Under the pieces are notes generated by a model. That model made no database searches, was not told the origin of the DNA, and saw nothing but the letters and a program-made list of their open reading frames with translations. Below are positions 1,611 to 24,588 of a stretch of 24,588 nt of DNA, in pieces. Each line of letters starts with the position of its first letter. Positions within the stretch are counted from its first letter, which is position 1. Origin of the DNA: a virus; IMG/VR virus record IMGVR_UViG_3300029827_000044, positions 1 through 24,588 of that record; one strand, given 5' to 3'. The position numbers and the translations under genes are program-made.

Positions 1611-1620
1611 GGAGATAAAT

Positions 1621-2154: not shown

Positions 2155-2156
2155 AT

Positions 2157-6294: not shown

Positions 6295-6309
6295 AGATCC
6301 TCACTTTTA

Positions 6310-6343
6310 TGCAAGTATATGCTTGCCGATGCTTTCCTGCAAG
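6310..6343. promoter_or_regulatory. Possible operator: three GCAAG half-sites
   Basis: GCAAG (6311-6315) and CTTGC (6322-6326) form a dyad over the -10 of the HTH promoter, and a third TGCAAG (6338-6343) overlaps the -35. Placement over the promoter suggests repressor binding, most simply autoregulation by the adjacent HTH protein. Inference from position only. Confidence 0.4.
6314..6342 (-). promoter_or_regulatory. Sigma70-type promoter for the HTH cassette
   Basis: On the minus strand, TTGCAG (6337-6342) is separated by exactly 17 bp from TATACT (6314-6319), 20 bp before the HTH start codon. Both hexamers are close to consensus and no competing gene occupies the stretch. Confidence 0.65.
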
Positions 6344-6423
6344 AGAAAAAAAATAGGTTTACCAATTAAAATAAAGATTTTACAAGGAAGTTAAAGATAA
6401 AAAATTTCTTTATGGGAGAAAAA

Positions 6424-7227: not shown

Positions 7228-7235
7228 GAGGAACT

Positions 7236-7502
7236 ATGACTCAGAAGCAAACAACTAAAGATTACACATTAGCCGAGATCCGTGGGGATCTTGGCATGTT
7301 CCTTGAGAAGCGTATGTCTTACTCTGGAGATAACATCGAGTATGTAGGATATAATAGAGAAGCAAATGCAACTACTACTGATACATCTTGGTTCATAATT
7401 AAAAATACTTATTCTGGAAGTAATATTACTCGTTACCAACTGCCTGACAGTGGACCACAGTTTAAATATGCTTGGGACTCTAGAGCTACTTATTTCACTT
7501 AA
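7236..7502 (+). CDS. Small conserved phage virion-region protein
   Basis: 88 aa with a strong Shine-Dalgarno (GGAGGaactATG). The pattern 'eYvGya..ga.t....W.Ikk.tYsGsniT......s...f.y.WDsRa...' (IEYVGYNREANATTTDTSW, FIIKNTYSGSNITRYQLPD, YAWDSRATYF) is one I recognise from small proteins next to tail-fibre or structural genes in many phages; their function is not established. No signal peptide or membrane segment. Here it sits between two fibre genes. Confidence 0.75.
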   Translation: MTQKQTTKDYTLAEIRGDLGMFLEKRMSYSGDNIEYVGYNREANATTTDTSWFIIKNTYSGSNITRYQLPDSGPQFKYAWDSRATYFT

Positions 7503-7511
7503 GGAGAGTTA

Positions 7512-8360
7512 ATGCCATACGAATATAATCCTTTCACTAACAATTTAGATGATACGGGTGTAATAAATACTGCTGATGTAGTTGGGCCTGGAACAGCTGT
7601 GATCGACAGTTCGTTAGTTCGATGGGATGGAATAACGGGAACTTCCATAAAAGGGTCGGTAGCAACTTTAGATGATTCTGGAAATCTTGTTGTAAGTAGT
7701 ATTGCCCTCACGACGGATTTGGCTGTTGGTGATGGTGGATCTGGAAGGGCTTCGGCAACTGCCTATGCAGTAATTTGTGGAGGTACAACAAGTTCAGGAG
7801 CACATCAATCTATAGCTTCCGTGGGGACTTCAGGACAAGTTCTTACATCGAATGGAGCTTCAGCATTACCCACATTTCAAAATGCCTCTGGCGGTGGAGT
7901 TGTAGTTCAACAAATTAGAAATGCAACCAGTGCATTAACGATCAATTCTACGATATTACCATGGGACGATACAATTCCGCAACAGACTGAAGGAGATGAG
8001 ATATTGACTGTTTCAATAACTCCTACATCAGCTTCGTCAGTTTTAGTTATTGAGGCTACTTGCATGGGATCAATTGATGGTGTTGAGAGAAAAATGGGTA
8101 TGGCTATATTCAGAGATTCTACTAGTGATGCGATAGCTGCTACTTCACTAAATGCTTCGGCAGATACTTCGGTATCAGATTATTCAATGTCTGGATCAAT
8201 CAAAACATATGTTTCAGCCACAAGCACTTCACCCACTACATTTAAATTAAGAGTCGGCAATGAAGTCGGAGCAGGGAGTTCCGTCAATGGATATACTACT
8301 GGTCGCATTTATGGGGGTGTAGCAAATACTAGCCTTTTCGTTACTGAATATTCAACATAA
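7512..8360 (+). CDS. Tail fibre-type protein B
   Basis: 282 aa, ribosome site aaGGAGagttaATG. The N-terminus MPYEYNPFTNNLDDTG is the 'M...yNPFtgnLD' cap seen on many phage fibre proteins and is shared with the next gene, so it is probably the attachment peptide. Next come SSLVRWDGITGTSIKGS and a GDGGSGRASATAYAVICGG...GTSGQVLTSNGASALPTFQ motif (about 75-130), the classic fibre shaft repeat. The C-terminal half (about 135-282) is a Thr/Ser-rich beta domain ending in GRIYGGVANTSLFVTEYST. Likely a homotrimeric fibre or spike. Confidence 0.7.
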   Translation: MPYEYNPFTNNLDDTGVINTADVVGPGTAVIDSSLVRWDGITGTSIKGSVATLDDSGNLVVSSIALTTDLAVGDGGSGRASATAYAVICGGTTSSGAHQSIASVGTSGQVLTSNGASALPTFQNASGGGVVVQQIRNATSALTINSTILPWDDTIPQQTEGDEILTVSITPTSASSVLVIEATCMGSIDGVERKMGMAIFRDSTSDAIAATSLNASADTSVSDYSMSGSIKTYVSATSTSPTTFKLRVGNEVGAGSSVNGYTTGRIYGGVANTSLFVTEYST

Positions 8361-8369
8361 GGAATAATA

Positions 8370-9101
8370 ATGCCTTTTAAATATAATCCCTTTAGCAATA
8401 AACTTGATGAAACAAACCAAGCTGGCACTGTTTCTCCTTTAACTACAAAAGGAGATATTTACACTTATTCGACTGCTGATGCTAGACTTGCAATTGGAAC
8501 AAATGGAGATGTTCTCACTGCCGACTCTGCTGAAACAACTGGAGTGAAATGGGCGGCTCCTGCTGCACCTACATCATATCGAAGTTTTCAATTGATCAGT
8601 ACTACGACAGCTTCATCAGATGCGACAATAGACTTCACGAGTCTTTCTGAAGACCTTTATCTTCTCGTTGGAAAAGATGTTCTCTTTGGTGATAACTCGA
8701 GTGATAATCGTTTAATCAACATAAGAACAAAAGTTCAAGGTGGCACTTTTGAAAGTGGGGCAACCGACTATTCATGGAGTGCTATAGGAAGAACAGCAGC
8801 TTCTGCTTCTATCGCTAACTCAAATGCCGCAGATACATTAATCGAAACGAAAATGAGTTCCAACTTAACTACAACAAACAGTGGTAGACGTGCTTATTTA
8901 AAAATTTATGTAATGAATATTGGAAATTCATCTCGAAATACAACTGTTTTTGGGAATTGTTATGGTACTGATGGCGATCAAGTACAATTTTCAGGTATCA
9001 GAACGGTGGCGCAAGATGACGATGGATTTCAAATAATTCCTAGTGTTGGCACATTTATTGAAGGGACTTTCTATCTTTATAAAGTAACCGAAGGAGTATA
9101 G
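8370..9101 (+). CDS. Tail fibre-type protein C
   Basis: 243 aa, taaGGAataataATG. N-terminal cap MPFKYNPFSNKLDETN parallels protein B. It is followed by LTTKGDIYTYS...IGTNGDVLTADSAETTGVKWAAP, the 'tKGDil......l.vGtdgqvL.adsa...Glkw' shaft repeat. The C-terminal domain starts with STTTASSDATIDFTSL and ends with GTFIEGTFYLYKVTEGV, the same domain as in the three tandem genes at 10638-12873. Shared ends with exchangeable middles suggest recombination among the fibre genes. Confidence 0.7.
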   Translation: MPFKYNPFSNKLDETNQAGTVSPLTTKGDIYTYSTADARLAIGTNGDVLTADSAETTGVKWAAPAAPTSYRSFQLISTTTASSDATIDFTSLSEDLYLLVGKDVLFGDNSSDNRLINIRTKVQGGTFESGATDYSWSAIGRTAASASIANSNAADTLIETKMSSNLTTTNSGRRAYLKIYVMNIGNSSRNTTVFGNCYGTDGDQVQFSGIRTVAQDDDGFQIIPSVGTFIEGTFYLYKVTEGV

Positions 9102-9341
9102 ATGAGCAAATTACACAAAATGGTCAATGGAAATAAAGTACTATTGACTGAAGATGAGGAATTAATTCTCAAGGCTGAATGGGAAAAAAATAGAATCGAG
9201 CATGACAAAAGAAGATTGAAAATAAAAGCTGACAAAGAAAGAAAATCAGAATTGAAAGCAAAACTAGCTGAGATGTTAGGAGCGACTTCAGAAGAAATTG
9301 ATTTACTTGTGGGGAAATCAGATGAGTTACTCAGGGATTAG
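9102..9341 (+). CDS. Small coiled-coil protein in fibre operon
   Basis: 79 aa, gaaGGAGtatagATG. It opens with MSKLHKMVNGNKVLLTEDEE, the 'm...vnG..v.Lt.eE' opening common in small phage proteins encoded beside fibre genes. The middle is a highly charged helix (KAEWEKNRIEHDKRRLKI..), and the end is LGATSEEIDLLVGKSDELLRD. Possible fibre-assembly chaperone or scaffold, by analogy with neighbours of tail fibres in other phages; not proven. Its last 20 bp overlap the next gene. Confidence 0.65.
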   Translation: MSKLHKMVNGNKVLLTEDEELILKAEWEKNRIEHDKRRLKIKADKERKSELKAKLAEMLGATSEEIDLLVGKSDELLRD

Positions 9342-10641
9342 TCCCAAAAATCCGACAGATTATAAAGGTATTTCGAATGGTGTTGTCCCTGCTGTCACAC
9401 GTGCACGTCGTCCAACTAGTGCTGATTGGAGACAACCTGAAACTGGGAAACGCTATCCGATCACTTGTATTTGGCAAGTATCTAAAAGCCCTACAACGGG
9501 ATCTGAAGGTGAGCTATGGCTTCTATCTAAGATCGTGTCTAATGTAGCTACATGGGTTCAGCTTGGATCTGGAGGAGGTGGAGGCGGTTTAGCGTCTCTG
9601 ACAGCTCAGAACACAACAACTGTTCTCCCATCTGGTGCTGGTGACATCACTGTTAATGGTAGTGTGGTAGCAACAGGAACAAACTCTGGATTCCCTCTCT
9701 ATGCAAAGGGAACTGAGTCAGATCCAACCCATGATATTGATTATGAAATCCAATTGGCTGGATTAGTTACTGCAACTCCAGCAAATTCGAATAGCTGTGG
9801 GATAGCCTGTTTCAATGATACTCAATTTCAGAAGGACGCAACCTCTGGGATGATCTCTCTAGTTGGAAGCACTACTTCACCTCCAATTATAATGTTTTCT
9901 CTTGACGACACCAATAATGCTACTGCTGATGGTTCTGGTGTTGTGACCTTGAAGGGGCAGATAGTCAACAATGGGACACATGCGAAATCCCTTTTCTCAT
10001 TGAGATCTCCTGGAACAAATGACATTCTATTCGATCTCCAAGTGGCAACTCTGACTACAGATGCCGCTAAATCAGTTACTAAGGCTGGTGTGATCTCTGC
10101 AAATAGTGCTCAATTCCAGATGGATGCTACGACTGGTTTTCTCTCTCTGAAGGGATCAACATCACTCGCACCAATCTTAAGTTTAACTGGAAGTGGAGGT
10201 GGCGGAGCACTCAGTCCTGATGCCAATGGAAATGTAACGATAGCGGGTTCGGGGGGAGCGACAGTAACAGGTTCAGGAAATACAATCACAATCAATGCAG
10301 GCGGTGCAGGAGGAGGGTTAACTTGGCGTGAAGAAACAGGTACATCGGCAACTTTCGCAATCGGAGGTGAGGGAATTTTTGGCAATAATGCGTTACCTAT
10401 CACGCTCACATTGCCCTCGGCTACGGTGGGTGATACTTTCGCAGCCTATCAAGAAGGTGCTGGGAGGATCAGGATCGCACAGAACGCATCGGATCAAATT
10501 CGATTCGGAAATTCTACTTCAACTTCTGGAGCTGGAGGATACATTGACTCTCTAAATCAAGGCGATTGTGTATGGATTGTATGTCTTGAAGCTAATAAAT
10601 TCAGAGTTATCAATTCGATAGGGAGTTGGGTTGTAGGATGA
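9322..10641 (+). CDS. Tail fibre-type protein D, with widespread C-terminal domain
   Basis: Start taken at 9322 (MSYSGISPKNPTDY), with ggggaaatcag before it; a TTG at 9298 is possible but less supported. 439 aa. An N-terminal module with ELWLLSK...VATWVQLG ends in a Gly run (about 85-92). Two internal repeats begin near residues 164 and 262 (FNDTQFQKDATSGMISL and NSAQFQMDATTGFLSL, each followed by GST..P). A Gly/Thr hinge leads to a C-terminal domain (about 332-439: EETGTSATFAIGGEGIFGNN...LTLPSATVGDTF...IAQNASDQIRFGN...DCVWIVCL). That domain is the well-known 'tLP...vGd.....g.g.g.w.I.QnagQ.i.fG' fibre tip of many phages and prophages. Best supported receptor-binding candidate here. Confidence 0.75.
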   Translation: MSYSGISPKNPTDYKGISNGVVPAVTRARRPTSADWRQPETGKRYPITCIWQVSKSPTTGSEGELWLLSKIVSNVATWVQLGSGGGGGGLASLTAQNTTTVLPSGAGDITVNGSVVATGTNSGFPLYAKGTESDPTHDIDYEIQLAGLVTATPANSNSCGIACFNDTQFQKDATSGMISLVGSTTSPPIIMFSLDDTNNATADGSGVVTLKGQIVNNGTHAKSLFSLRSPGTNDILFDLQVATLTTDAAKSVTKAGVISANSAQFQMDATTGFLSLKGSTSLAPILSLTGSGGGGALSPDANGNVTIAGSGGATVTGSGNTITINAGGAGGGLTWREETGTSATFAIGGEGIFGNNALPITLTLPSATVGDTFAAYQEGAGRIRIAQNASDQIRFGNSTSTSGAGGYIDSLNQGDCVWIVCLEANKFRVINSIGSWVVG

Positions 10642-11384
10642 CTGTTGTAACTAATGCTCTAAACATTAATGATGACGGCATTCAAGACTTCAATGCAACT
10701 CTCGGAACATTCGATGCAACTTCATTGACAATGAAAGGGGATTTGCTAGGATACACTGGGACTGCACATCAACGATTTCCTGTTGGAATGGATGGATATG
10801 TTTTAAAGGCCGATGATACTCAAGATGTAGGTTGGCGATGGGCTTGTCCAAGCTTTGAATTCATTTCTTCGGCAACAGCAAGTAGTAGCAGCACCATTGA
10901 GTTTAATAATTTTCAGGATGCAGACTGTTACAATGGCTATAAGCTCGTATGGCAGAATGTAACTCATACAGGTACAACTTTCTCATTTCTATTTCGCCTA
11001 AGTACAGATAATGGATTATCATGGAGATCAAGCGGATACCAATATGCCCGTGAAAGTATAAGAGATAATACTGGAGATGCTGTTTATCCATATAGTTCCT
11101 CGGGGAGCTACATTCAAATAAATGCCACTGATGGCGGTGATACTAGGAATCTACAATTTAGTGGAGAGGCTTTTATTTTTAATAGCAGTGATCCCTCAAC
11201 ATATTTACAACAGGGATTTACTTTCACATCATCAAATCATACTAATATAAGTGGGGGTCAATCATTGACTTCTAGGGGATGGGCAATAACCGATGCGACC
11301 GATCCGATAAATGGTTTTCAATTCTATATGTCTAGTGGAAATATCACAGATGGAAACTTCTATCTTTACGGAATGAGATCATGA
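10638..11384 (+). CDS. Tandem fibre paralogue E1
   Basis: 248 aa. The ATG at 10638 overlaps the preceding TGA (ATGA) and gives MTVVTNALNINDDG, matching the start of paralogue E3 (MTITTNAININNDG), so I prefer it to the upstream TTG at 10626. Domains: N-terminal peptide; LTMKGDLLGYTG...VGMDGYVLKADDTQ shaft repeat (about 33-70); C-terminal beta domain opening SATASSSSTIEFNNF, containing LSTDNGLSWRSSGYQY and closing FQFYMSSGNITDGNFYLYG. The closing motif is common in phage fibre tips. Confidence 0.7.
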   Translation: MTVVTNALNINDDGIQDFNATLGTFDATSLTMKGDLLGYTGTAHQRFPVGMDGYVLKADDTQDVGWRWACPSFEFISSATASSSSTIEFNNFQDADCYNGYKLVWQNVTHTGTTFSFLFRLSTDNGLSWRSSGYQYARESIRDNTGDAVYPYSSSGSYIQINATDGGDTRNLQFSGEAFIFNSSDPSTYLQQGFTFTSSNHTNISGGQSLTSRGWAITDATDPINGFQFYMSSGNITDGNFYLYGMRS

Positions 11385-12124
11385 CAACGGAGAATACAGC
11401 AAATGTTTCTAGCTCAGGCCTACAGATTTTTAACAGTACTACGGGCGCATTTTCAGGTGCTGACGCCTCTGCTAAGGGGGATTTACTCGTATATGATGGA
11501 TCAGCTTATACCTTTTTAACTCTTGGAGCTAATGAAAAGGTCCTCACCTTGGATTCGAGTGAAGCGACTGGATTTATATGGAATGATCTTCCGTTCACTG
11601 GAGATTGGGTTTTAATCGGATCGGAAACAGCTAGTTCCTCAGCTACAATCGATTTTACAAATTTAGATACTTCAACATATGCTTCTTTTCATGTCAGAGC
11701 TGTAAATATACATCCTGCCACAGATAACGTATCTCTTCAAACCTTGATGAGCATTGATAATGGGGTTTCATTTATCAGCTCAGGATACAGTTATGTCTAT
11801 CGCATTTTTGATGTGGGATCAGGAACAATTAATGATGGACATAGCACTTCAGCAAGTGCCATAGAAACTTCCGAAGCGATTGGAAATGCTGGAGGAGAAG
11901 GTATTGCAGGATGGTTTTGGTTGCTTCCTAGTGGAGATCCGACACAAACACGACACTCGATAGAATGGCAACTTTATTCTCAAGATACTGGAAATGTTTT
12001 AAATGGATTCTGGGGAGGAGCTATTAATAGTACAACGAGTGCAATAGATGCTCTGAGATTTCAATTCTCTTCGGGAAATATTGAAGTGGGAACATTTTAT
12101 CTCTACGGACTGAATGCATCATGA
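11381..12124 (+). CDS. Tandem fibre paralogue E2
   Basis: 247 aa, translationally coupled by a 4-bp ATGA overlap at both ends. Same three-part build as E1: MTTENTANVSSSGLQIFNS, then ASAKGDLLVYDG...LGANEKVLTLDSSEATGFIW, then SETASSSATIDFTNLD ... MSIDNGVSFISSGYSY ... LRFQFSSGNIEVGTFYLYG. The middle of the C-terminal domain diverges most from E1 and E3, as expected if it contacts different surfaces. The stretch GNAGGEGIAGWFWLLPSGDP matches the position of GNSSGEGLSGKAIYIPSPSP in E3. Confidence 0.7.
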   Translation: MTTENTANVSSSGLQIFNSTTGAFSGADASAKGDLLVYDGSAYTFLTLGANEKVLTLDSSEATGFIWNDLPFTGDWVLIGSETASSSATIDFTNLDTSTYASFHVRAVNIHPATDNVSLQTLMSIDNGVSFISSGYSYVYRIFDVGSGTINDGHSTSASAIETSEAIGNAGGEGIAGWFWLLPSGDPTQTRHSIEWQLYSQDTGNVLNGFWGGAINSTTSAIDALRFQFSSGNIEVGTFYLYGLNAS

Positions 12125-12873
12125 CGATTACAACTAATGCAATAAATATTAATAATGATGGATTGGCAATCTTTGAAAGTTCCACAGGGACTTTCTCAGC
12201 AATTGAATTGACTACAAAGGGTGATATACTTACTCGAACCACATCTGTTTACACGGATCTTGGTGTGGGCACTGATACGCATGTCCTGATAAGTGATAGC
12301 ACTCAGGCATCTGGACTTAATTATGCTGCTAAAACTTCAGGAAGCTCAGTGATCTATCTAGAAACTCAGACAGCTAGTGCTTCGGCATCCGTGGATTTTA
12401 CAGCGAGTTTTGATGATTTGACTTATCTCTATTATATTTTTACTTATACAAATGTCAGTCCTACTACCGATGGAGTAGAATTGAGAGTTAAAATGAGTGT
12501 GGATACGGGAAGTAGCTGGGAAAGTTCTGGATATAGATGGGTAAGAATGAGATTGTCTTCGAGTTCTGGGTCAGATTCGATAAGTGATAGTAATAGTGAT
12601 TCCAAAATTAAAATCATGACTGATCTAGGTAATTCTTCTGGAGAGGGGTTGAGTGGAAAAGCAATTTATATCCCTTCTCCATCACCAAGCAGTGATTATC
12701 CAGGTCAATTAATGCATGATAATATTTTCGTCAAAAGTACAGGAACGATGTACCGCAATTTTGGAAAAGGTATGCTGGGAACAAATTCAGTTGTCGATGG
12801 CATCCAATTTTACATGTCAAGCGGAACAGTCGCCACAGGTGTCTTCAAGATGTATGGAGTCACAAAAGTTTAA
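12121..12873 (+). CDS. Tandem fibre paralogue E3
   Basis: 250 aa, coupled to E2 by ATGA. MTITTNAININNDGLAIFES is followed by LTTKGDILTRTT...VGTDTHVLISDSTQASGLNY and a C-terminal beta domain (TQTASASASVDFTAS ... MSVDTGSSWESSGYRW ... IQFYMSSGTVATGVFKMYG). A Ser/Asp low-complexity patch, SSSSGSDSISDSNSDSK, lies at about 157-173 where E1 and E2 have unrelated loops. Last gene of the fibre block, followed by a stem-loop. Confidence 0.7.
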   Translation: MTITTNAININNDGLAIFESSTGTFSAIELTTKGDILTRTTSVYTDLGVGTDTHVLISDSTQASGLNYAAKTSGSSVIYLETQTASASASVDFTASFDDLTYLYYIFTYTNVSPTTDGVELRVKMSVDTGSSWESSGYRWVRMRLSSSSGSDSISDSNSDSKIKIMTDLGNSSGEGLSGKAIYIPSPSPSSDYPGQLMHDNIFVKSTGTMYRNFGKGMLGTNSVVDGIQFYMSSGTVATGVFKMYGVTKV

Positions 12874-18272: not shown

Positions 18273-19058
18273 TTATACCTCTAATTCTATTTTGTTTTGT
18301 GTCCTAATTACTTTTAGTCTTTTATTCTTCATATTGAAGTTGTAAATATCTGCGAATTGATCTATGTATTCTCCCCATGCAGACCGATAAAATATATCAT
18401 ATGGGTAGTTCTCGAATCGCTCATAAAATCTCTCTTCATCTAAGATAGGAGTGAAGAAAAATTTTCTTAATGCATAGTGGAAGGCTTTTTGCTTGTATAT
18501 TTTCAATGGTCGATAATTTCTATCTTTCATCATATCAACTATAACCCAAGCTTTACGCAGGTTCATCTCTCCAATTCCATTCCTTGCGATTTTTAACTTG
18601 CCATCTTTAATTATTTGGCAAATTCTTCCTGAATCATCGGGAAGTATCCACGTGCATAAGACTAGATAGGGAATATCAAATTCTCTTTTAAGATTGCGCA
18701 GATAGATATAATCATCCTTCATCTTGCCAGCCCAAAATTCAATATAATTCTCAATACTCCAGTTCATTTGGTTAGAGTTGAGCAACATCAATTTATCTTC
18801 TGTATAATTTGAGTCCGTCACATAAAATATCGGAATTTTCAAAAATTCAGCTGCTTTTAATCTATGTTGCCCGTCAATTACCTTAAGATCTGGTGTAACT
18901 ACAATGGGATGTAAATGCAAATCGTTTGACCTTTCAATAGATGTTATCAATTTATTAACATGATTCTGATTTATTGGGCGGTTATGTTCAATGGAATTAA
19001 ACATATCATAATCTTTTGAAGCCTTAACTCTTATCTCTCGGCTTTTTGTGTTTTCCAT
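18273..19058 (-). CDS. ParB/Srx-fold (DGQHR) protein
   Basis: 261 aa, ribosome site GAGGaaaaaaATG. RPINQNHVNKLITSIERSN then HPIVVTPDLKVIDGQHRLKAAEFLKIPIFYV (about 27-80) contains the DGQHR signature (62-66) of the ParB/Sulfiredoxin nucleotide-binding fold. The rest, rich in aromatic and basic residues, is not the HTH domain of chromosomal ParB, and no ParA lies nearby. In phages such proteins may act as nucleases, NTP-dependent DNA-binding proteins or regulators. It overlaps the preceding gene by 35 bp. Confidence 0.7.
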   Translation of the reverse strand: MENTKSREIRVKASKDYDMFNSIEHNRPINQNHVNKLITSIERSNDLHLHPIVVTPDLKVIDGQHRLKAAEFLKIPIFYVTDSNYTEDKLMLLNSNQMNWSIENYIEFWAGKMKDDYIYLRNLKREFDIPYLVLCTWILPDDSGRICQIIKDGKLKIARNGIGEMNLRKAWVIVDMMKDRNYRPLKIYKQKAFHYALRKFFFTPILDEERFYERFENYPYDIFYRSAWGEYIDQFADIYNFNMKNKRLKVIRTQNKIELEV

Positions 19059-19335
19059 TTTTTTCCTCGTTGTTATCTGATTTTAGTTGTTTTTCTATAT
19101 CTTTAAGAGTTTCTTCCCATGTCTTAGGTGTCCGCTCTCCTACTGCCCTAACTTGGTCATCCATTGAGATCATCAATTTTGCGCAGTGCCATTTAAGCGT
19201 CTCAGCTAACTCTATTTCGTCGTCTGTTAAGATCCCCGAGCTTATATAGCTTACCTGTTCTTTTGAGAGTATGTCGATGAATAAAGCCAGCTTTCCGAGA
19301 CTGAGCATATAGTCCTCAATTGTTTTATCACTCAT
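19024..19335 (-). CDS. Hypothetical helical protein
   Basis: 103 aa from the ATG at 19335, which overlaps the previous stop by 8 nt (ATGAGTGA), a junction used repeatedly in this genome; an in-frame ATG at 19353 is the alternative. N-terminal hydrophobic helix (YMLSLGKLALFIDILS), a Trp/Cys-containing middle (ETLKWHCAKLMIS) and a very charged tail (KQLKSDNNEEKNGKHKKPRDKS). Family not recognised. Confidence 0.6.
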   Translation of the reverse strand: MSDKTIEDYMLSLGKLALFIDILSKEQVSYISSGILTDDEIELAETLKWHCAKLMISMDDQVRAVGERTPKTWEETLKDIEKQLKSDNNEEKNGKHKKPRDKS

Positions 19336-19543
19336 TAGAAGTCCATTCGCCATTTTCAGATATTTCCTTATCCGAAACCGACTTCCTAACTTCTATGAGA
19401 GAATCGCCTGCCCACTCCTCAAAATCTTCATCGCTAGACTCCATAAAGTCTCTAAGTCTCTCCTCTCCATAAGCCACGGAGCCAGTATTTTTATTTAGGT
19501 ACATAGCGTTAACATTTAGCCATGATGGAATACATTTATTCAT
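19328..19543 (-). CDS. Hypothetical acidic protein
   Basis: 71 aa; start at 19543 (MNKCIPSWLNVNAMY), an 8-nt overlap (ATGAATAA) with the preceding stop. The bases before it, cttaaaccaaaggttacctATG, resemble the repeated leader motif of the right arm but lie inside the upstream gene. Acidic middle (ESSDEDFEEWAGDSLIEV). Family not recognised. Confidence 0.55.
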   Translation of the reverse strand: MNKCIPSWLNVNAMYLNKNTGSVAYGEERLRDFMESSDEDFEEWAGDSLIEVRKSVSDKEISENGEWTSNE

Positions 19544-19745
19544 AGGTAACCTTTGGTTTAAGTATTTTAATTTCAAATCCCATTTTCTCTAAAGATGCAA
19601 GGTCGGGATCTAGTAACACCTTGCGCCTCCCCGCTCCTCCCCGAGTGATATCAAGGAAATGATTTGCCATTTCATTATCGGGGTAATAATAATTCTTTCC
19701 GCATAAGACTTTAAGCTTTAAGACAACTAATTTTTTTTCTTCCAT
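19536..19745 (-). CDS. Hypothetical 69-aa protein
   Basis: Ribosome site GGAGaatattaaaATG. Basic beginning KKLVVLKLKVLCGKNYYYPDNEMANHFLDIT, then RGGAGRRKVLLDPDLASLEKMGFEIKILKPKV. The pattern looks like a small alpha/beta protein. Its start and Shine-Dalgarno are overlapped by the end of a 24-aa upstream ORF. Family not recognised. Confidence 0.6.
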   Translation of the reverse strand: MEEKKLVVLKLKVLCGKNYYYPDNEMANHFLDITRGGAGRRKVLLDPDLASLEKMGFEIKILKPKVTYE

Positions 19746-19801
19746 TTTAATATTCTCCGTTGTATTTTAGGGATGATTGCAAGGGGTTTATCCTTCCTCA
19801 T
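19727..19801 (-). CDS. 24-aa basic upstream ORF
   Basis: MRKDKPLAIIPKIQRRILKWKKKN follows a copy of the repeated leader, with AAAGGA 9 nt before its ATG. It runs across the Shine-Dalgarno and start of the 69-aa gene, ending within it. It may be a small basic protein or a translational regulator of the 69-aa gene. Confidence 0.4.
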   Translation of the reverse strand: MRKDKPLAIIPKIQRRILKWKKKN

Positions 19802-19847
19802 TGTTTTCATTCCTTTTGGTTAAGGTGAGGGGCTAGTAATAGCCCCT
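19799..19847 (-). promoter_or_regulatory. Leader element 1 (stem-loop plus TTAACC motif)
   Basis: AGGGGCTA/TAGCCCCT forms an 8-bp stem with a 4-nt loop (19828-19847), then 3 nt and CTTAACCAAAAGGA leads to the 24-aa ORF. On the plus strand the same stem has a GTAA loop and a run of six T, so it could also terminate rightward transcription. Confidence 0.6.
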
Positions 19848-19908
19848 TTTTTCATGCGCTACCTACAAGAAAGCATATAGTATAGAATATTTGCGATCAT
19901 CCTGCAAG

Positions 19909-20379
19909 CTAATACCTCGACCATCTTTCAGCAGTGAGCCATTTGATTTTCATCTCAGTATCACACAAAGCGGACAGATCGCCGAAAAACTTTGCCATCG
20001 CTTCAAAGTCTATCTTGTCGGACACCCATTCTTTATGCCTCTTGAGATTTTCCTCAAGATCATCAATCAAAATTTGAGGCGTTATATTATCTTGATAAAA
20101 GTGAAAATTTAGCTCTTCCCATCCTTTATTACTCCACAGAAACCTTAATCTATTAGTAGTAGAATATTCTTTATCAATAAACATTCTGACATGTTTACCA
20201 TCTCCGACTTTACAATCAAACTTATCAGTAATTCTTTTGTTTACCGTTTTATAATGCAAGTGCTCTTTCAATAATTTAATAGCACATTCCATTATGTGGA
20301 TTCTATGTGAATAAAGTTCTTTGCGCTCTATTTCATCTTTCTTTTGCTGGTCGATATAATTTTGCATTGATTTAAGCAT
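19909..20379 (-). CDS. Hypothetical 156-aa protein
   Basis: Start at 20379 chosen: GGGGGG lies 5 nt upstream and the ATG overlaps the previous stop by 8 nt (ATGCTTAA); an ATG at 20400 lies inside the 57-aa gene. Helical N-terminus (MQNYIDQQKKDEIERKELYSHRIHIMECAIKLLKEHL), basic middle, a Trp-containing SNKGWEELNFHFYQDN stretch and an acidic helical end ending in KWLTAERWSRY. Family not recognised; cytosolic by composition. Confidence 0.65.
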   Translation of the reverse strand: MLKSMQNYIDQQKKDEIERKELYSHRIHIMECAIKLLKEHLHYKTVNKRITDKFDCKVGDGKHVRMFIDKEYSTTNRLRFLWSNKGWEELNFHFYQDNITPQILIDDLEENLKRHKEWVSDKIDFEAMAKFFGDLSALCDTEMKIKWLTAERWSRY

Positions 20380-20545
20380 CGAATCCCCCCATTTTAACAT
20401 CTAAAATATTCTCTTTAGTGATAAACATTATTCCAAATTCTTCGTTTGCCTCTATCCATCCTTCGGCATCTCCGTAAGAATATTCCTGACTTACTAAAAT
20501 TATTTCAGTTAGTTTTGAAGGGATTACTTGATAAATATTATACAT
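20372..20545 (-). CDS. 57-aa hypothetical protein
   Basis: Excellent ribosome site AAGGAGaatgaaATG and an 8-nt overlap with the next gene. The sequence (MYNIYQVIPSKLTEIILVSQEY ... YGDAEGWIEANEEFGIMFITKENI) has the strand-strand-helix-strand layout of small phage proteins that include a 'y.da..wie...e' helix. First gene after the near-consensus promoter at 20595-20623. Function unknown. Confidence 0.7.
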   Translation of the reverse strand: MYNIYQVIPSKLTEIILVSQEYSYGDAEGWIEANEEFGIMFITKENILDVKMGGFDA

Positions 20546-20565
20546 TTCATTCTCCTTGTGTTCAT
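20524..20565 (-). CDS. 13-codon upstream ORF
   Basis: The ATG that follows leader element 2 opens MNTRRMKCIIFIK and stops after 13 codons. It covers the Shine-Dalgarno and first codons of the 57-aa gene in another frame. Possible leader peptide or start-site competitor; too short to be sure. Confidence 0.25.
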   Translation of the reverse strand: MNTRRMKCIIFIK

Positions 20566-20600
20566 GTTACCTATTTTGGTTAAAGTATACGTATACTATA
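20566..20600 (-). promoter_or_regulatory. Leader element 2 with perfect 14-bp palindrome
   Basis: AGTATACGTATACT (20584-20597) is a perfect palindrome lying at the expected transcription start and overlapping the -10. CTTTAACC follows it at once, then AAAATAGG. It may be an operator for a dimeric repressor, a 5' RNA hairpin, or both. Confidence 0.6.
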
Positions 20601-20623
20601 ACACGCCTTCTAGTAAGTGTCAA
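20595..20623 (-). promoter_or_regulatory. Near-consensus sigma70 promoter
   Basis: Minus-strand TTGACA (20618-20623), exactly 17 bp, then TATAGT (20595-20600). Best promoter in the window; it should drive the 57-aa gene and the genes to its left. Confidence 0.8.
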
Positions 20624-20649
20624 GCGTAAACATAAAAAAAAGAAAAGAG

Positions 20650-20678
20650 TTGATAAAAAATGTCTGTACCGATAGAAA
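20650..20678 (+). promoter_or_regulatory. Promoter for the small-terminase-like gene
   Basis: TTGATA (20650-20655), 17 bp, TAGAAA (20673-20678), 34 bp before the ATG at 20713, divergent from the leftward promoter. Confidence 0.5.
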
Positions 20679-20712
20679 AAGGTTAACAGAGCATAAAGGA
20701 ATTATTTTAATT

Positions 20713-21120
20713 ATGGCAGGATACCCAAAAAATAGAGCCGAAAAAGCGACGAACCCTTTGCCAGGCGTGCCCATTGATAGAGAAAAGCTCAAGAAAGAGA
20801 TTATCAAGCAGAATGGGAATTTGACTCGAGTTGCAATGGCCTTCAAGTGCGCTAGGAATTCAATTCGGCGCATTGTGTCCACAGACCCCGAGATTAAAGA
20901 GGTTCTTGAAGAAGCGAGAGAGCGTATAGTTGATGAGGTAGAAGACGCTTTCACAAAAAGAGCTATCGCAGGGGATACAACGGCTAGTATTTTCTTTTTG
21001 AAAACTCGTGGGCGTGAGAGGGGATATGATCAGGACTTTAGAGCAGACCTGGAAGCGGTTACAAGAGCAGCTATGAGCTTTGCCCTTAACAAGTCTCGTA
21101 ACCCTGCTGAAACGGATTAA
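20713..21120 (+). CDS. HTH protein resembling phage terminase small subunit
   Basis: 135 aa from the ATG at 20713 (AAAGGA 12 nt upstream); the frame is open farther up but only from weak starts. REKLKKEIIKQNGNLTRVAMAFKCARNSIRRIVST (about 23-57) is a helix-turn-helix of the 'G....aA..lg.sr.ti...i' type. It is followed by EEARERIVDEVEDAFTKRAIAGDTTASIFFLKTRGRERGYDQD, the 'A...gd..a..ffLKt.g.ergy' pattern found in small terminase-like proteins and related phage HTH proteins. Only plus-strand gene between 17374 and the right end, with its own promoter. No large terminase follows, so a separate regulatory role is possible. Confidence 0.6.
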   Translation: MAGYPKNRAEKATNPLPGVPIDREKLKKEIIKQNGNLTRVAMAFKCARNSIRRIVSTDPEIKEVLEEARERIVDEVEDAFTKRAIAGDTTASIFFLKTRGRERGYDQDFRADLEAVTRAAMSFALNKSRNPAETD

Positions 21121-21123
21121 GGG

Positions 21124-21549
21124 TTATAAAGGTATCTCCCCCTCATGGTATTGACCTACCCAAAACTCTATTTGACTCCAATTAATACCCATTTCAGCGT
21201 CAAAGCCACTTTCAACCTTCTGTAAAATGTGTCTAGCTTCTTGATCAGTAAGCTTAACCCAGTCATTTTCATCGGGGCATGAACTAAAATATTCAATATG
21301 ATCATCATTAACTTTATGAACATCATCAATTGACCAAATATTATTAATTTCATCTCCGTTCGCCACTCTAAAGCTCTCTAGTGGGGGCAATGAGTCAATC
21401 TCATCTTGTAAGCCTTTTAATACCTCAAGTAATTTTTCATAAGATATTAAGCTACCATAAAAATCAATATTCTCTTTGTAGTAATATATTTTATCGGCTA
21501 TAACATTTATCACTTTGCTCTTATAAATTACTTCATTTTCCTCAATCAT
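21124..21549 (-). CDS. Hypothetical 141-aa acidic protein
   Basis: Start coupled by ATGA to the preceding stop; GAGG is 7 nt upstream. Helical N-terminal half (KSKVINVIADKIYYYKENIDFY...LLEVLKGLQDEIDSLPPLESF), then an acidic region with NNIWSIDDVHKV, FSSCPDENDWVKLTDQEARHILQKVE and a Trp-rich end INWSQIEFWVGQYHEGEIPL. The stop lies 4 bp from the end of the convergent small-terminase-like gene. Family not recognised. Confidence 0.65.
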   Translation of the reverse strand: MIEENEVIYKSKVINVIADKIYYYKENIDFYGSLISYEKLLEVLKGLQDEIDSLPPLESFRVANGDEINNIWSIDDVHKVNDDHIEYFSSCPDENDWVKLTDQEARHILQKVESGFDAEMGINWSQIEFWVGQYHEGEIPL

Positions 21550-21749
21550 TCCTTCACCTCTCCACTTTCAATAAATCCTTTTAATATCTCTCTAGCTCTT
21601 TCAACTTCCATCGAAAGCCTTCCTACGGCTTGATTAATTTCTATTTCGATGTCATATTCAAGATAATGTCCATATTCATCGCCTTGATCACATATTTTGT
21701 AAGTTAATGCTATCAGCTCAACATCTGACATCTTATCAAATTTACTCAC
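21546..21749 (-). CDS. Hypothetical 67-aa protein, GTG start
   Basis: GTG start inside the previous gene's TGA (GTGA overlap) with a perfect AAGGAGG 7 nt upstream, which decides the start. MSKFDKMSDVELIALTYKICD and EINQAVGRLSMEVERAREILKGFIESGEV indicate two helices, acidic overall. Function unknown. Confidence 0.65.
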   Translation of the reverse strand: MSKFDKMSDVELIALTYKICDQGDEYGHYLEYDIEIEINQAVGRLSMEVERAREILKGFIESGEVKE

Positions 21750-22096
21750 CCTTTAACCTCCTTCCATACTCGACACGGCACGGTGAAGTTTATACCCCTT
21801 CCAGCTCCAGCCCTATCTTTATCAAAAAACCAGCAATCGCCGTCTTTAATATCGCTAGTTAAGACAAGGTTTTCATTCGGTATCGTTTTATCAAGGCTAC
21901 CCGAATAGCTCATATATCCGTTACCTAGGTATAGAGAGCCATTACCTATTGAAGGTTGTACGCCGTCGCCCCAATTATGAGCTACTCGCCTAGGCTTCTC
22001 CTCTTCCTCTAATTGCAGATAGTCACCTACCCGAATTCCTTCAATTTTATTCCACTGTTCAAGGCGAAACTTTAAAATTTCTTGATTGCATTTCAT
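21746..22096 (-). CDS. Conserved phage protein (HNWGDGVQ / YLGNGYMSYSGSLD type)
   Basis: 116 aa. After an N-terminal helix (ILKFRLEQWNKIEGIRVGDYLQL) come the motifs RRVAHNWGDGVQPS, GSLYLGNGYMSYSGSLD, CWFFDKDRAGAGRGINFTVPCRVW. I recognise this order from small proteins in many phage early regions, beta-rich and of unknown function. The start follows leader element 3 (AAAGGAaataacATG). Confidence 0.7.
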   Translation of the reverse strand: MKCNQEILKFRLEQWNKIEGIRVGDYLQLEEEEKPRRVAHNWGDGVQPSIGNGSLYLGNGYMSYSGSLDKTIPNENLVLTSDIKDGDCWFFDKDRAGAGRGINFTVPCRVWKEVKG

Positions 22097-22153
22097 GTTA
22101 TTTCCTTTGGTTAAGGTTAAATCCTAGCCTATAACGAGATGTTATAAGCTAGG
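22097..22153 (-). promoter_or_regulatory. Leader element 3 (stem-loop plus TTAACC motif)
   Basis: CCTAGC and TATAAC (22123-22135) pair with GTTATA and GCTAGG (22141-22153) around a 5-nt loop. The one mismatch, C-A on the plus strand, becomes a U-G pair in minus-sense RNA, giving a 13-bp stem. Seven nt later comes CTTAACCAAAGGA and the ATG. Confidence 0.7.
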
Positions 22154-22177
22154 GAAAAGCTTAACGCCTAGTATCCT

Positions 22178-22414
22178 TCATTCTTGCCCCCAATTATCAA
22201 TTTCAATTTGCAACTCCTTACCCTTATTCATTATGAATAATCCGCCTGAATTGCTCATAATCCAAGAATAAATTCGCTTCATTCTGCCATTATGTTTTAC
22301 CTTGTATTCAGTTTCAATTTTTAGCCCTCCATGCGGATATTTCATTAATCCCCTTTCTTGCCACCCTAGAGGACATCTAATTAATTCTTTAAAATCTAAG
22401 TCTAATTTTTGCAT
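22178..22414 (-). CDS. Small early protein, paralogue 1 (PLGWQ.RG type)
   Basis: 78 aa. CPLGWQERGLMKYPHGGLKIETEYKVKHNGRMKRIYSWI aligns closely with SPLDWQKRGIIKYPNGGEKVPTEFMFKFKGKLKRVYQRI in the next gene, so they are tandem duplicates. The 'sPL.WQ.rGl..t.sGyG.kipT.y.v..nGr..RvY' pattern is familiar from many phages; function unknown. Starts behind leader element 4. Confidence 0.7.
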   Translation of the reverse strand: MQKLDLDFKELIRCPLGWQERGLMKYPHGGLKIETEYKVKHNGRMKRIYSWIMSNSGGLFIMNKGKELQIEIDNWGQE

Positions 22415-22459
22415 TGTATTACTTCCTTTGGTTAAAGTTTCATTATCGCCTTAATAGGC
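22415..22459 (-). promoter_or_regulatory. Leader element 4
   Basis: CTTTAACCAAAGGA (core ggttaaag at 22430-22437 on the plus strand) 9 nt before the ATG. A short GCCT/AGGC hairpin (22448-22459) precedes it by 10 nt and holds the stop codon of the upstream gene in its loop. Confidence 0.5.
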
Positions 22460-22681
22460 TATGTTCAGAATTATTTTGTGTCCTTCATTAAGTATAAATC
22501 TTGTGCCATAATCAAATGTTATCCTTTGATATACCCTCTTTAGCTTTCCTTTAAATTTAAACATAAATTCCGTAGGCACTTTCTCCCCGCCATTAGGATA
22601 TTTAATTATCCCTCTTTTTTGCCAATCGAGGGGAGACAAGATTAAATCACTGTGGTTTATGTCAATTGCTATTATTCTCAT
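22451..22681 (-). CDS. Small early protein, paralogue 2 (PLDWQ.RG type)
   Basis: 76 aa, duplicate of the 22178 protein; the N-terminal 12 and C-terminal 20 residues have diverged most. The start follows AACCGAAAGGAAAGGATAACATG. Two copies side by side suggest either paired function or a hetero-oligomer. Confidence 0.7.
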   Translation of the reverse strand: MRIIAIDINHSDLILSPLDWQKRGIIKYPNGGEKVPTEFMFKFKGKLKRVYQRITFDYGTRFILNEGHKIILNIAY

Positions 22682-22703
22682 GTTATCCTTTCCTTTCGGT
22701 TAA
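22682..22703 (-). promoter_or_regulatory. Leader element 5
   Basis: ATTTAACCGAAAGGA leads to the ATG; the TAA in the motif is the stop codon of the upstream gene. No stem-loop. Confidence 0.5.
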
Positions 22704-22888
22704 ATTGTGTCGGTCAATGTTCTTCTCATGTGATTTATCAGTCTATGCCTACCCTCATAAAGTGAGGCATAAAGCTCTATTGCGTCGAGTATATCAAGCT
22801 TTGACGCTCTTTTTACCCACGATTTAAAGTCTGATATATTGCCATTTTCTAAGTCATTTAGTGCTTTTTCAATTGACGGTTTCGCCAT
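22700..22888 (-). CDS. Small helical early protein
   Basis: 62 aa: EKALNDLENGNISDFKSWVKRASKLDILDAIELYASLYEGRHRLINHMRRTL. The 'dl..Gni...r.wlk.asklDiLdaIe.y...yg...r.i..m...L' pattern occurs in small phage early proteins of unknown function. All-helical. Ends inside leader element 5. Confidence 0.7.
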   Translation of the reverse strand: MAKPSIEKALNDLENGNISDFKSWVKRASKLDILDAIELYASLYEGRHRLINHMRRTLTDTI

Positions 22889-22909
22889 GTTATCCTTCCT
22901 TGTTGTTAA
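22889..22909 (-). promoter_or_regulatory. Leader element 6 (degenerate)
   Basis: ATTTAACAACAAGGAAGGATAACATG, with CC of the motif changed to CA; its TAA is the stop codon of the upstream gene. No stem-loop. Confidence 0.4.
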
Positions 22910-23148
22910 ATATTAATATGATCAAATTTATAGCCCTTCTCAGTAAACCAAATTTGAAATTGGTTTTCCATATCTCTAAAACTCACGTCGACACCTAGCT
23001 TATTAGCGATATCAATTGAAATTACCTCAATTCTCCCCTCAAATTCCTCAAGGGTAGTGAATTGCTCATTCATCATTTCAATAACTCTATCTCTTGATAT
23101 CTCTTTAATGGCGTATCCTGTCACTATTTCCATATTAAACTTACTCAT
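22906..23148 (-). CDS. Hypothetical 80-aa protein
   Basis: MSKFNMEIVTGYAIKEISRDRVIEMMNEQFTTLEEFE, then GRIEVISIDIANKLGVDVSFRDMENQFQIWF. Mixed alpha/beta and acidic; no metal or catalytic motif. Starts behind leader element 7 with AAAGGATaaaATG. Family not recognised. Confidence 0.65.
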   Translation of the reverse strand: MSKFNMEIVTGYAIKEISRDRVIEMMNEQFTTLEEFEGRIEVISIDIANKLGVDVSFRDMENQFQIWFTEKGYKFDHINI

Positions 23149-23206
23149 TTTATCCTTTCCTTTTGGTTAAGTTTTCATCATTGCCCACAATGTTAATCGT
23201 GGGCAA
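23149..23206 (-). promoter_or_regulatory. Leader element 7 (stem-loop plus TTAACC motif)
   Basis: TTGCCCAC/GTGGGCAA (23181-23206) makes an 8-bp stem. In minus-sense RNA it extends by G-U, A-U and U-A to an 11-bp stem with a UAAC loop. CTTAACCAAAAGGA follows after 9 nt. Confidence 0.65.
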
Positions 23207-23215
23207 GGGTGAGAC

Positions 23216-23524
23216 TTAACGTGCGATTATCTCGCATAGCTCAGTTTGTGATACTCTCATAGGGATTAACTCCCCTAACAAGCCACTGGCATAATCCGCT
23301 TGAGTCTTTACAATATTGATATGCCTTGAGGAAGTAGGGCTAAACTTTTCAAGTGTAATATACCATTGTCCTCCACAATATACCGCTATCGGCTTGTGAT
23401 ATGAATGAATGATATACGCCCCACTTCTAACATTAACACCCCACAATGTTTTGGCGTTAAAATTTTGTTTTCCGTATATTAGGCCTTCACTAACAGCCTT
23501 TTGTATTGATACTTTCTTACTCAT
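23216..23524 (-). CDS. Conserved small phage protein ('SY..PIA' type)
   Basis: 102 aa. NFNAKTLWGVNVRSGAYIIHSYHKPIAVYCGGQWYITLEKFSPTSSRHINIVKTQ follows the familiar phage pattern 'nf.g........y.v.SY.tpIa.....W.i...kyS.TTs.Hq..v'. That domain is of unknown function and often lies among host-takeover genes. Helical tail LLGELIPMRVSQTELCEIIAR. Starts behind leader element 8. Confidence 0.7.
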   Translation of the reverse strand: MSKKVSIQKAVSEGLIYGKQNFNAKTLWGVNVRSGAYIIHSYHKPIAVYCGGQWYITLEKFSPTSSRHINIVKTQADYASGLLGELIPMRVSQTELCEIIAR

Positions 23525-23582
23525 GTTATCCTCTTGTTGGTTAAGATTAAATCCTAGTCCACAATCGCAATCGTGGACTAGG
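23525..23582 (-). promoter_or_regulatory. Leader element 8 (stem-loop plus TTAACC motif)
   Basis: CCTAGTCCAC/GTGGACTAGG (23553-23582) is a perfect 10-bp stem, extended in minus-sense RNA by G-U, A-U and U-A to 13 bp with a UGCG loop. Its flanks (CGTTAAGCTTT before, AGGATTTAAtCTTAACCAA after) are nearly identical to leader 3 while the stem sequence differs. Confidence 0.7.
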
Positions 23583-23589
23583 GGAAAGC

Positions 23590-23817
23590 TTAACGTGGCT
23601 TGCCTAATTCATACGTGGGGCTACGCGTAGTTTTATAACTCCGAAACTCGTCAATTTCGTGTACCTCAGACCATTCAAGGTTATTTAAACATTGCATATA
23701 TCCTATAGTTTGTTCAGCCGTGAGGTTTCTCAAGTTATCTTGTAAAAACTTAAAAATTGCTTTCGTTGTGTCTTGCTGAATCTCTCTCAATTCATGTTTT
23801 TCAATATCTGTTCTCAT
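23590..23817 (-). CDS. Hypothetical 75-aa protein
   Basis: MRTDIEKHELREIQQDTTKAIFKFLQDNLRNLTAEQTIGYMQCLNNLEWSEVHEID is mainly helical and charged, with a short polar tail (RSYKTTRSPTYELGKPR). Starts behind leader element 9 (AAAAGGAaataaATG). Function unknown. Confidence 0.65.
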   Translation of the reverse strand: MRTDIEKHELREIQQDTTKAIFKFLQDNLRNLTAEQTIGYMQCLNNLEWSEVHEIDEFRSYKTTRSPTYELGKPR

Positions 23818-23869
23818 TTATTTCCTTTTGTTGGTTAAAGTTTTGTAAGCGGGGAGAATAATCCCCCCG
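23818..23869 (-). promoter_or_regulatory. Leader element 9 (stem-loop plus TTAACC motif)
   Basis: In minus-sense RNA CGGGGGGA (5' arm) pairs with UCUCCCCG around a UUAU loop (23850-23869), 8 bp including one G-U that is an A-C mismatch on the other strand. CTTTAACCAACAAAAGGA follows 9 nt later. Confidence 0.65.
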
Positions 23870-23875
23870 ACTCGA

Positions 23876-24067
23876 TTAAAGTAATCCTTTGTCGATAAAC
23901 TCCTCAAAGATGTCACTAAAATCATCCGACAGTAAACAGTCTAGCTCGATATATCCTGAATCCGTGAGCTCCTTGTCTAGCCTCGAGAGGAATCCAAGCC
24001 ATGCCCTAACGGTGATCTCTGTTAGTAAAGGCGGTGTTGTGTCTTGGATTGTCTTGTAATTTATCAT
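23876..24067 (-). CDS. Hypothetical 63-aa acidic protein
   Basis: MINYKTIQDTTPPLLTEITVRAWLGFLSRLDKELTDSGYIELDCLLSDDFSDIFEEFIDKGLL: an aromatic-containing helix then a strongly acidic end. Rightmost gene in the window, starting behind leader element 10. Small acidic early phage proteins often act as host-factor inhibitors or DNA mimics; that is only a possibility here. Confidence 0.6.
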   Translation of the reverse strand: MINYKTIQDTTPPLLTEITVRAWLGFLSRLDKELTDSGYIELDCLLSDDFSDIFEEFIDKGLL

Positions 24068-24090
24068 TGTATCTATCCTTTTGGTTAAAG
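24068..24090 (-). promoter_or_regulatory. Leader element 10
   Basis: CTTTAACCAAAAGGA (core at 24083-24090) before gatagatacaATG; the clearest copy of the motif. No convincing stem-loop beside it. Confidence 0.5.
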
Positions 24091-24588
24091 TTTCTCTTAA
24101 TGTGCCACCAGTCTAACACAAGTGCGCATATAAACACAATACGAACAATTATTTTAATTTCCCCTTGACAATTTAAAATGAAAACTTGACAGGTGAGGTT
24201 ATTGGGTCGCATATCTCCACGCTTTCAGTTTAAGATATCCGCTTCACTTCTCCACTTCTCCAAGGCAACAACAATATAGCCATAGCCATAAGGTGTAACT
24301 AATCCATATGGTTGATAGTTGATACGTCTTTTCTTATTATGCAAAAGGCCGCATTGAGGTACTAGTCACAAGTGTAAATTAAAGTTTTAAGTATACACTT
24401 GCTGTTGCCGTTGAGGGTGAGAGTGTCTGACTTTTCCGCCACTGTTCAATGGTGATACAAGCTTGATAGTAGTGGGACAGTGGGGACAACAAGCGATTGA
24501 TCATAAGAACTATTTGAATCTGGTGACAAGTAAACGTTTTATTTGATAGGGGGGCATGACCTTATATATAAGTACCTACATATATATA
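24091..24588. other. Gene-free repeat-rich region at right edge
   Basis: About 500 bases without a supported gene. It contains two direct CTTGACA copies 21 bp apart (24164-24170, 24185-24191), an inverted repeat CAAGTGTA/TACACTTG (24369-24376, 24394-24401), and a second inverted repeat CCACTGT/ACAGTGG (24439-24445, 24477-24483) enclosing CAAGCTTG. It also holds the 12-bp palindrome CTTATATATAAG (24561-24572) and AT repeats to the edge. Likely early control region or replication origin; I see no confident minus-strand promoter, so the main one may lie beyond the window. Confidence 0.5.

Follow-up and report, generated by a model that had tools for sequence, protein, structure and literature searches.

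A repeated start-proximal leader and a conserved stop-to-Shine-Dalgarno hairpin ahead of small early genes in environmental phages

Why do ten starts on one strand of a phage genome, opening different small genes, share a short sequence that extends well beyond the ribosome-binding site? The question is raised by the IMG/VR virus record IMGVR_UViG_3300029827_000044, a linear fragment of 24,588 bases that was analysed over its whole length and is called the window here. An earlier note on this DNA had described a motif ahead of ten minus-strand gene starts between 19.8 and 24.1 kb and ahead of none of the plus-strand genes, and had offered a common translational regulator, an RNA-processing signal or a cassette boundary as its possible meaning. 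Here we report that the motif occurs far above chance, that in part of its copies it forms the 3′ arm of a hairpin of about 60 nt, and that this fold is conserved, in the same position, in nine phages ahead of genes that are mostly unrelated.

The leader motif and its hairpin in the window

The pattern TTAAC[ACGT]{2,8}AGG[..]ATG occurs at ten sites on the minus strand of the window (Table 1) and at none on its plus strand, whereas 300 second-order Markov simulations of the 19.0-24.6 kb region gave a mean of 0.28 sites and a maximum of 2. With up to two mismatches, the consensus TTAACCAAAAGGA was found 8 times against 1.3 expected, a number that none of 100 shuffles attained, and TTAAC lies within 32 nt of the start in none of the ten minus-strand Shine-Dalgarno (SD) genes below 19.5 kb. 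The ten sites and their restriction to one strand were thus borne out, and the motif is common neither at random nor before plus-strand genes. Based on the simulation excess, the strand specificity and the per-column information, which peaks over TTAACC and exceeds that of the SD columns, chance and a plain SD sequence were rejected as the source of the motif; this peak and the hairpins directly upstream support the earlier view that it is more than a ribosome site.

Nine copies carry TTAACC and one, at 22909, TTAACA; only four (24088, 23838, 22435 and 20583) read ACTTTAACC, and CTTAACC is likewise present in four. TTAAC begins 18-22 nt ahead of the ATG in every copy, and TTAACC is separated from AGG by 8-12 nt. 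As the earlier note had it, the TAA of the motif is also the stop codon of the preceding gene in two cases (22909 and 22703), and a variant lies within coding sequence before the start at 19543. All ten sites are real, but two of the supposed gene starts (20565 and 19799) open ORFs (open reading frames) as short as 13 and 24 codons, which run into the start of the following gene. These two ORFs (20524-20565 and 19725-19799, minus strand) overlap the next starts, 20545 and 19745, by about 20 nt at their ends, and each of those starts has its own SD; leader peptides or translational coupling are possible upstream of them.

Beyond what the earlier note contained, a hairpin lies directly upstream of five leaders. 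At three of the ten (starts 23524, 23148 and 22096) a full imperfect hairpin of about 60 nt fills the intergenic gap, with TTAACC as the 3′ arm of its basal stem; two further copies (23838 and 19823) are preceded by a short hairpin, and the other five have no strong one. In the full form the basal stem measures 6-8 bp and the apical stem, whose sequence is free, 10-13 bp, and between them lies an asymmetric internal loop. In element 1 the TAA stop of gene 23817-23590 lies within the 5′ basal arm GTTAAG, the apical stem is CCTAGTCCAC/GTGGACTAGG, and the 3′ basal arm CTTAAC is the motif copy itself; element 2 holds the stop of gene 23524-23216 within its 5′ arm, with the stem TTGCCCAC/GTGGGCAA and the 3′ arm CTTAAC; and element 3 reads GTTAAG..CCCTAGCTTATAAC/GTTATAGGCTAG..CTTAAC, the annotated TGA stop lying 12 nt upstream. 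TTAA recurs on both sides of the stem because the TTA of TTAACC complements the UAA stop within it.

By self-comparison, the three intergenic stretches (23597-23516, 23223-23140 and 22166-22093) are 75-76% alike across 77-84 nt, and positions 38863-38789 of a related phage, G001, are 81% identical to the first of them, with differing downstream genes. Five copies in all, two of them in G001, share an element of about 75 nt ahead of differing genes, which aligns as GTTAAG-CTTT-CCCTAG-(variable stem-loop)-CTATGATTTAA-CTTAACC-A-SD-ATG. Its outer arms are conserved, while the inner stem is hypervariable yet paired, with double changes in 6 of 17 pairs.

Fold and position of the element in related phages

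Searches with the terminase identified G001 (39.8 kb) and G002 (40.4 kb) as relatives of the window, and their major capsid protein as query retrieved 74 viral contigs, many of them near 40 kb. The source is a soil or water phage; several of the relatives are fragments, and the gene calls in the window are mechanical. Two covariance models were searched against them. The first, built on the five copies from the window and G001, found the element in G004, G018, G002 and G021 (E 3e-4 to 0.05), each time just ahead of an early ORF; the second, trimmed before the SD and containing neither SD nor ATG, added two elements in G017 and one each in G019 and G029. In total, there are 13 elements across nine phages, namely the five model-building copies and eight more in seven other relatives.

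In all 13 an ORF starts 8-26 nt past the 3′ arm, for the eight model-found elements on the element's own strand, and in 10 the in-frame stop of the upstream ORF (TAA or TAG) falls at offset 5-6, within the 5′ basal arm; in the remaining three it lies at most 12 nt upstream. The fold z ranges from -4.1 to -7.7, and the 3′ side of the internal loop is usually longer by at least 1 nt. In an alignment of nine sequences 94.8% of cells are paired, double changes occur in 13 of 17 pairs, and covariation scores 0.709, compared with 0.181 after shuffling and at most 0.158 after sliding, statistics which lean upward because four of the nine sequences were selected by structure. A twelve-sequence MAFFT alignment, in which the G017 arms were misplaced, was left out of the pair counts. 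Apart from two paralogues in G001, the proteins encoded downstream are unrelated. The ORF behind the G018 element has only 32 codons, and the gene behind the G021 element (L152, 941-1480, minus strand) encodes an ArdA antirestriction protein (Pfam E 7e-38), which is in keeping with early expression.

In other viral contigs, 0.90 Mb in all, the second model matched nothing at E up to 1, and Rfam gave no match above the gathering score in the window, L016, L124 and L147, with one sub-threshold match at chance level elsewhere in the region. A first count of long hairpins before all genes showed no strand difference; when only strong long hairpins in gaps of 45-90 nt were counted, the strands differed, with 11/64 on the minus and 3/125 on the plus strand, where p=5e-4 is indicative only because the thresholds were set after the first, non-separating count had been seen.

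Other relatives have repeated A/C-rich leaders of their own before early genes, as if these were phage-specific start-associated sequences (G019, on L148, 14518-14977; G013 18380-19543; G001 37146 and 39102; CACAATAACACAAAGGG; ACAAAAAGG; ATACCATAACAAAAACCAAAGGAG). A general A/C-rich leader across all relatives, hinted at by per-genome k-mers, was set aside, the early strand being only mildly A-richer in composition.

A processed early-mRNA leader and its alternatives

Based on these findings, we propose, with a probability of roughly one half (0.52), that the elements are intercistronic RNA-processing or insulating hairpins joined to a strong translation leader, and that the TTAACC-SD half is also used without the hairpin. 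The dispersed motif would then be the start-proximal half of an early-mRNA leader, whose full form is a hairpin of about 60 nt opening in the stop codon of the first gene (UAA or UAG in the 5′ basal arm) and closing with UUAAC(C) before an A-rich SD and the AUG. Most likely a double-strand RNase (RNase III, the enzyme of the early sites of phage T7) would cleave a long early transcript at these hairpins and so give short mRNAs with the 5′ leader UUUAACC-AAAAGGA. The upper hairpin would stay behind and shield the 3′ end of the upstream mRNA, while the unpaired UUUAACC-AAAAGGA could drive strong initiation, being a leader of the kind found at T7 genes 1.3 and 10, and copies lacking the long hairpin would rely on this half alone. 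It is the T7-like order of the leader parts that favours RNase III processing of a polycistronic early mRNA; given this layout and the conserved intercistronic hairpins, of the three meanings first proposed, that of an RNA-processing signal now has the most support, and the earlier interpretation as a whole is partly supported. More tentatively, the element could be an undescribed structured intercistronic RNA belonging to a clade of environmental phages of about 40 kb, in which the whole gap is one stop-to-SD hairpin, whose basal arm would be melted by the terminating ribosome, thus controlling both RNase cutting and initiation at the next gene.

Several points weigh against the processed leader. 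The members found by the covariance models are biased towards the structure of the model, and double changes appear in any set of inverted repeats aligned on its arms. The full hairpin is missing from seven of the ten window copies, and most of 23 near-complete relatives have no detectable element. Among the matches listed in a motif scan of viral contigs, which were mostly single-copy, TTAACC is a multi-copy motif only in the window phage and G001; whether relatives keep only the AGGA part, which the earlier note named as a refuting outcome, has a mixed answer, as only G001 keeps multi-copy TTAACC but other relatives keep the hairpin closed by that arm. The second model found no match at E up to 10 in T7 500-7300, so that the likeness to T7 is one of layout, not descent. 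A major capsid protein search of 84,980 species genomes gave no prophage relatives and thereby identified no host, and operon transcription, cleavage, the enzyme and the effect on translation are all read from sequence and fold.

It is also possible, though we consider it doubtful, that no cleavage takes place, and that UUUAACC with the A-rich SD raises initiation as the T7 gene 10 epsilon does, the hairpins only insulating the cistron, in that they would hold the SD unpaired and shield it from upstream ribosomes. The place of TTAACC 18-22 nt before all ten ATGs, the TTTAAC ahead of the SD in T7 genes 10 and 1.3 and the five copies without a strong hairpin agree with this, and a stop codon of the preceding gene within the stem would suit a control exerted by ribosomes that terminate there; however, it leaves unexplained the conserved hairpin length, the asymmetric internal loop and the long stem, as well as why relatives keep the hairpin while dropping TTAACC. 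That UUAACC is instead complementary to a host 16S rRNA with an unusually extended 3′ end (..CCUCCUUUUGGUUAA) and pairs with it is barely credible: although perfect complementarity is possible in principle, TGGNTCACCTCCTTNNGGTTA occurs only 7 times in the 84,980 species genomes, in unrelated taxa and never with the usual 16S 3′-end context, and the distance from TTAACC to AGG varies, and this pairing was rejected. We regard it as unlikely that a phage or host factor binds the motif while the upstream inverted repeat serves as promoter or operator, in a control site like the start-associated sequences (SAS) and their extended form (ESAS) of cluster K mycobacteriophages. The layout is shared with these and with Microbacterium cluster EF, about half of the copies have an upstream inverted repeat as there, putative SigA-type promoters lie within the ESAS of Adephagia, and a -10-like hexamer (for example TATGAT or TAGGAT) stands 6 nt before TTAACC in several copies. 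Yet sigma-70-like promoters are not enriched in the region (20 found, 17.7 expected), for which a promoter at each copy was rejected; the only strong one lies outside the full hairpins, the -35 position would fall in the hypervariable stem, and the double changes indicate pairing rather than a fixed binding sequence. Intrinsic terminators were rejected as well, with 4 found against 3.4 in shuffles and most hairpins lacking a T tract.

The cassette boundary requires separate consideration, that is, that the repeated leaders exist because they permit exchange of small early genes by homologous recombination. One stretch in common with G001 begins within gene 22888-22700, includes the next leader and diverges at the ATG, its identity, about 90% overall, being greater in the 3′ two thirds of that gene, and the same element stands ahead of unrelated genes in the window and G001. 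Therefore, leaders have been points of exchange on at least one occasion, probably through plain homologous recombination. But this is the only clear case, no dedicated recombinase is linked to the site, both the box order and the non-conserved boxes exclude integron attC, and the elements of distant relatives share the fold and not the sequence, so that they cannot recombine with each other. As the reason for the leaders, exchange is thus improbable; of the earlier suggestion there remain plausible exchange points, but not a dedicated recombination site. Together with the self-comparison, such exchange can explain the likeness of the copies within one genome without a trans-acting regulator.

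Genomic setting and comparison with known systems

The plus strand of the window encodes structural genes (a virion protein and tail-type repeat proteins), and a RecT-like annealing protein, a PD-(D/E)XK nuclease, RusA and then a ParB-like protein are also encoded; the small terminase gene, on the plus strand, is flanked by many small minus-strand genes. At 7512-12873 (plus strand) related tail-type proteins follow in series with N-termini alike (MPYEYNPFTNNLDDTG / MPFKYNPFSNKLDETN and similar), apparently by repeated duplications. Genes 22451-22681 and 22178-22414 are tandem paralogues, 41% identical, and the first has relatives (PHROG 3436, unknown function) in 270 phage records, most of them of enterobacterial phages. 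The promoter listed in Table 1 is the sole strong one of the early region, with a predicted transcription start just upstream of the 20583 copy, and the roughly 480 nt at 24100-24588, upstream of the first motif-led gene, hold no credible gene and could contain an early promoter or an origin.

Table 1. Leader motifs, hairpins and other features of the window
Feature	Sequence	Position	Strand	Remarks
Leader motif	TTAACCAAAAGGA	24076..24088	-	before start 24067; no strong hairpin, upstream stretch gene-free
Short hairpin	CGGGGGGATTATTCTCCCCG	23850..23869	-	upstream of 23838 motif copy
Leader motif	TTAACCAACAAAAGGA	23823..23838	-	before start 23817
Full hairpin, element 1		23537..23597	-	first model 91.6 bits, second model 67.2 bits (model-building sequence); minimum free energy -24.8, z -7.7
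Leader motif	TTAACCAACAAGAGGA	23529..23544	-	before start 23524; 3′ arm of element 1
Full hairpin, element 2		23163..23223	-	second model 68.1 bits (model-building sequence); minimum free energy -24.7, z -7.1
Leader motif	TTAACCAAAAGGA	23158..23170	-	before start 23148; 3′ arm of element 2
Variant motif	TTAACAACAAGGA	22897..22909	-	before start 22888; TAA is stop of gene 23148-22906
Block shared with G001 (38068-37875)		22688..22882	-	89.7% identical; probable cassette exchange
Leader motif	TTAACCGAAAGGA	22691..22703	-	before start 22681; TAA is stop of gene 22888-22700
Leader motif	TTAACCAAAGGA	22424..22435	-	before start 22414
Full hairpin, element 3		22107..22168	-	second model 63.7 bits (model-building sequence); z -5.8
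Leader motif	TTAACCAAAGGA	22103..22114	-	before start 22096; 3′ arm of element 3
Sigma-70-type promoter	TTGACA-17-TATAGT	20595..20623	-	TG before -10; 11/12 consensus matches, consensus match only
Leader motif	TTAACCAAAATAGG	20570..20583	-	before 13-codon ORF (start 20565) overlapping start 20545
Short hairpin	GGGGCTATTACTAGCCCC	~19829..19846	-	upstream of 19823 copy; terminator-like on plus strand, may serve there instead
Leader motif	TTAACCAAAAGGA	19811..19823	-	before 24-codon ORF (start 19799) overlapping start 19745
Weak variant	TAAACCAAAGGT	19549..19560	-	within coding sequence, before start 19543

Like integron attC sites, the elements are hairpins with basal boxes conserved among the window copies and a variable apical part, located between small genes. 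However, the box order of attC (5′-RYYYAAC ... GTTRRRY-3′) is reversed here to GTTRRRY..RYYYAAC (in the window GTTAAGY ... CTTAAC), for which attC identity was rejected; the boxes are not kept in relatives, which have other arms, and no integron integrase was found among the proteins examined.

The closest parallels described so far are the SAS/ESAS of actinobacteriophages. Those of cluster K are start-associated copies, about half of them with an upstream inverted repeat (PMC3203893), similar motifs occur in Microbacterium cluster EF (PMC7302621), and the Adephagia ESAS contain putative SigA-type promoters (PMC11373665). The ten copies here resemble them in being a short, conserved, asymmetric sequence of about 13 nt that spans the SD in one orientation at the starts of unrelated non-structural genes, in having an upstream inverted repeat at about half of the copies, in the larger gaps, and in sometimes including the upstream stop codon (PMC3203893, PMC7302621). 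The sequences are unrelated, TTAACCAAAAGGA here against GGGATAGGAGCCC / GGGAAAGGACCCC, and in ESAS Pope et al. saw little evidence of RNA pairing (PMC3203893), whereas double changes in the inverted repeat here speak for it. In an ESAS, imperfect inverted repeats of 17 bp and of conserved sequence occur together with a promoter, while the inner stem here is hypervariable and promoters are not enriched. By sequence, then, the window leaders do not belong to this class, which they resemble in layout. If the present elements are cut by RNase III, this could also account for the role, open since 2011, of other start-associated sequences. What looked like a repeated SD-like motif becomes a testable RNA element, with a double-change fold and a fixed stop-to-SD place in nine uncultivated phages and absent from Rfam, which offers a handle to find early operons in metagenomic phages.

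In layout the elements are also like those of T7, whose early transcript is cut by RNase III at five sites (PMC4858673). One of these, R1.1, lies in the early region between genes 1 and 1.1 and is an RNA of 60 nt whose internal loop is asymmetric, at 4/5 nt (PMC6121014). All five (R0.3, R0.5, R1, R1.1 and R1.3) resemble the elements here in being imperfect hairpins between cistrons, about 60 nt long and with an asymmetric internal loop, directly before early genes. When the T7 sequence was folded, similar hairpins appeared ahead of genes 0.3, 0.5, 1 and 1.3; in the last of these the leader, hairpin-TCATTTAACCAATAGGAGATAAACATTATG (hairpin, TTTAACCAATAGGAG and ATG), has the order hairpin-TTTAACC-SD-ATG of the window leaders. 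The 3′ side of the internal loop contains TGAT or GGAT in several elements here and TATGAT in T7. Processed T7 early mRNAs begin with pGAU, and GAT lies in the internal loop of several elements at the place matching that 5′ end. The T7 gene 10 leader, with its epsilon enhancer (UUAACUUUAA), contains TTTAACTTTAAGAAGGAG and likewise presents a 5′ hairpin, UUUAAC, AAGGAG and AUG, but it serves a single gene with its own T7-type promoter, whereas ten copies are dispersed here; with the epsilon-type enhancer (UUAACUUUA upstream of the SD) the present leader shares UUUAAC and its position, not UUUA. Unlike in the T7 sites, the upstream stop codon is part of the basal arm in the elements here, which are known from sequence while the T7 sites are RNase III-cut, and the phage type differs, the portal being only distantly like (20-25% identity) those of the nearest isolate phages, of podovirus type and others. 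If RNase III does cut these elements, T7's way of making short early mRNAs would have arisen, or persisted, in an unrelated group of phages.

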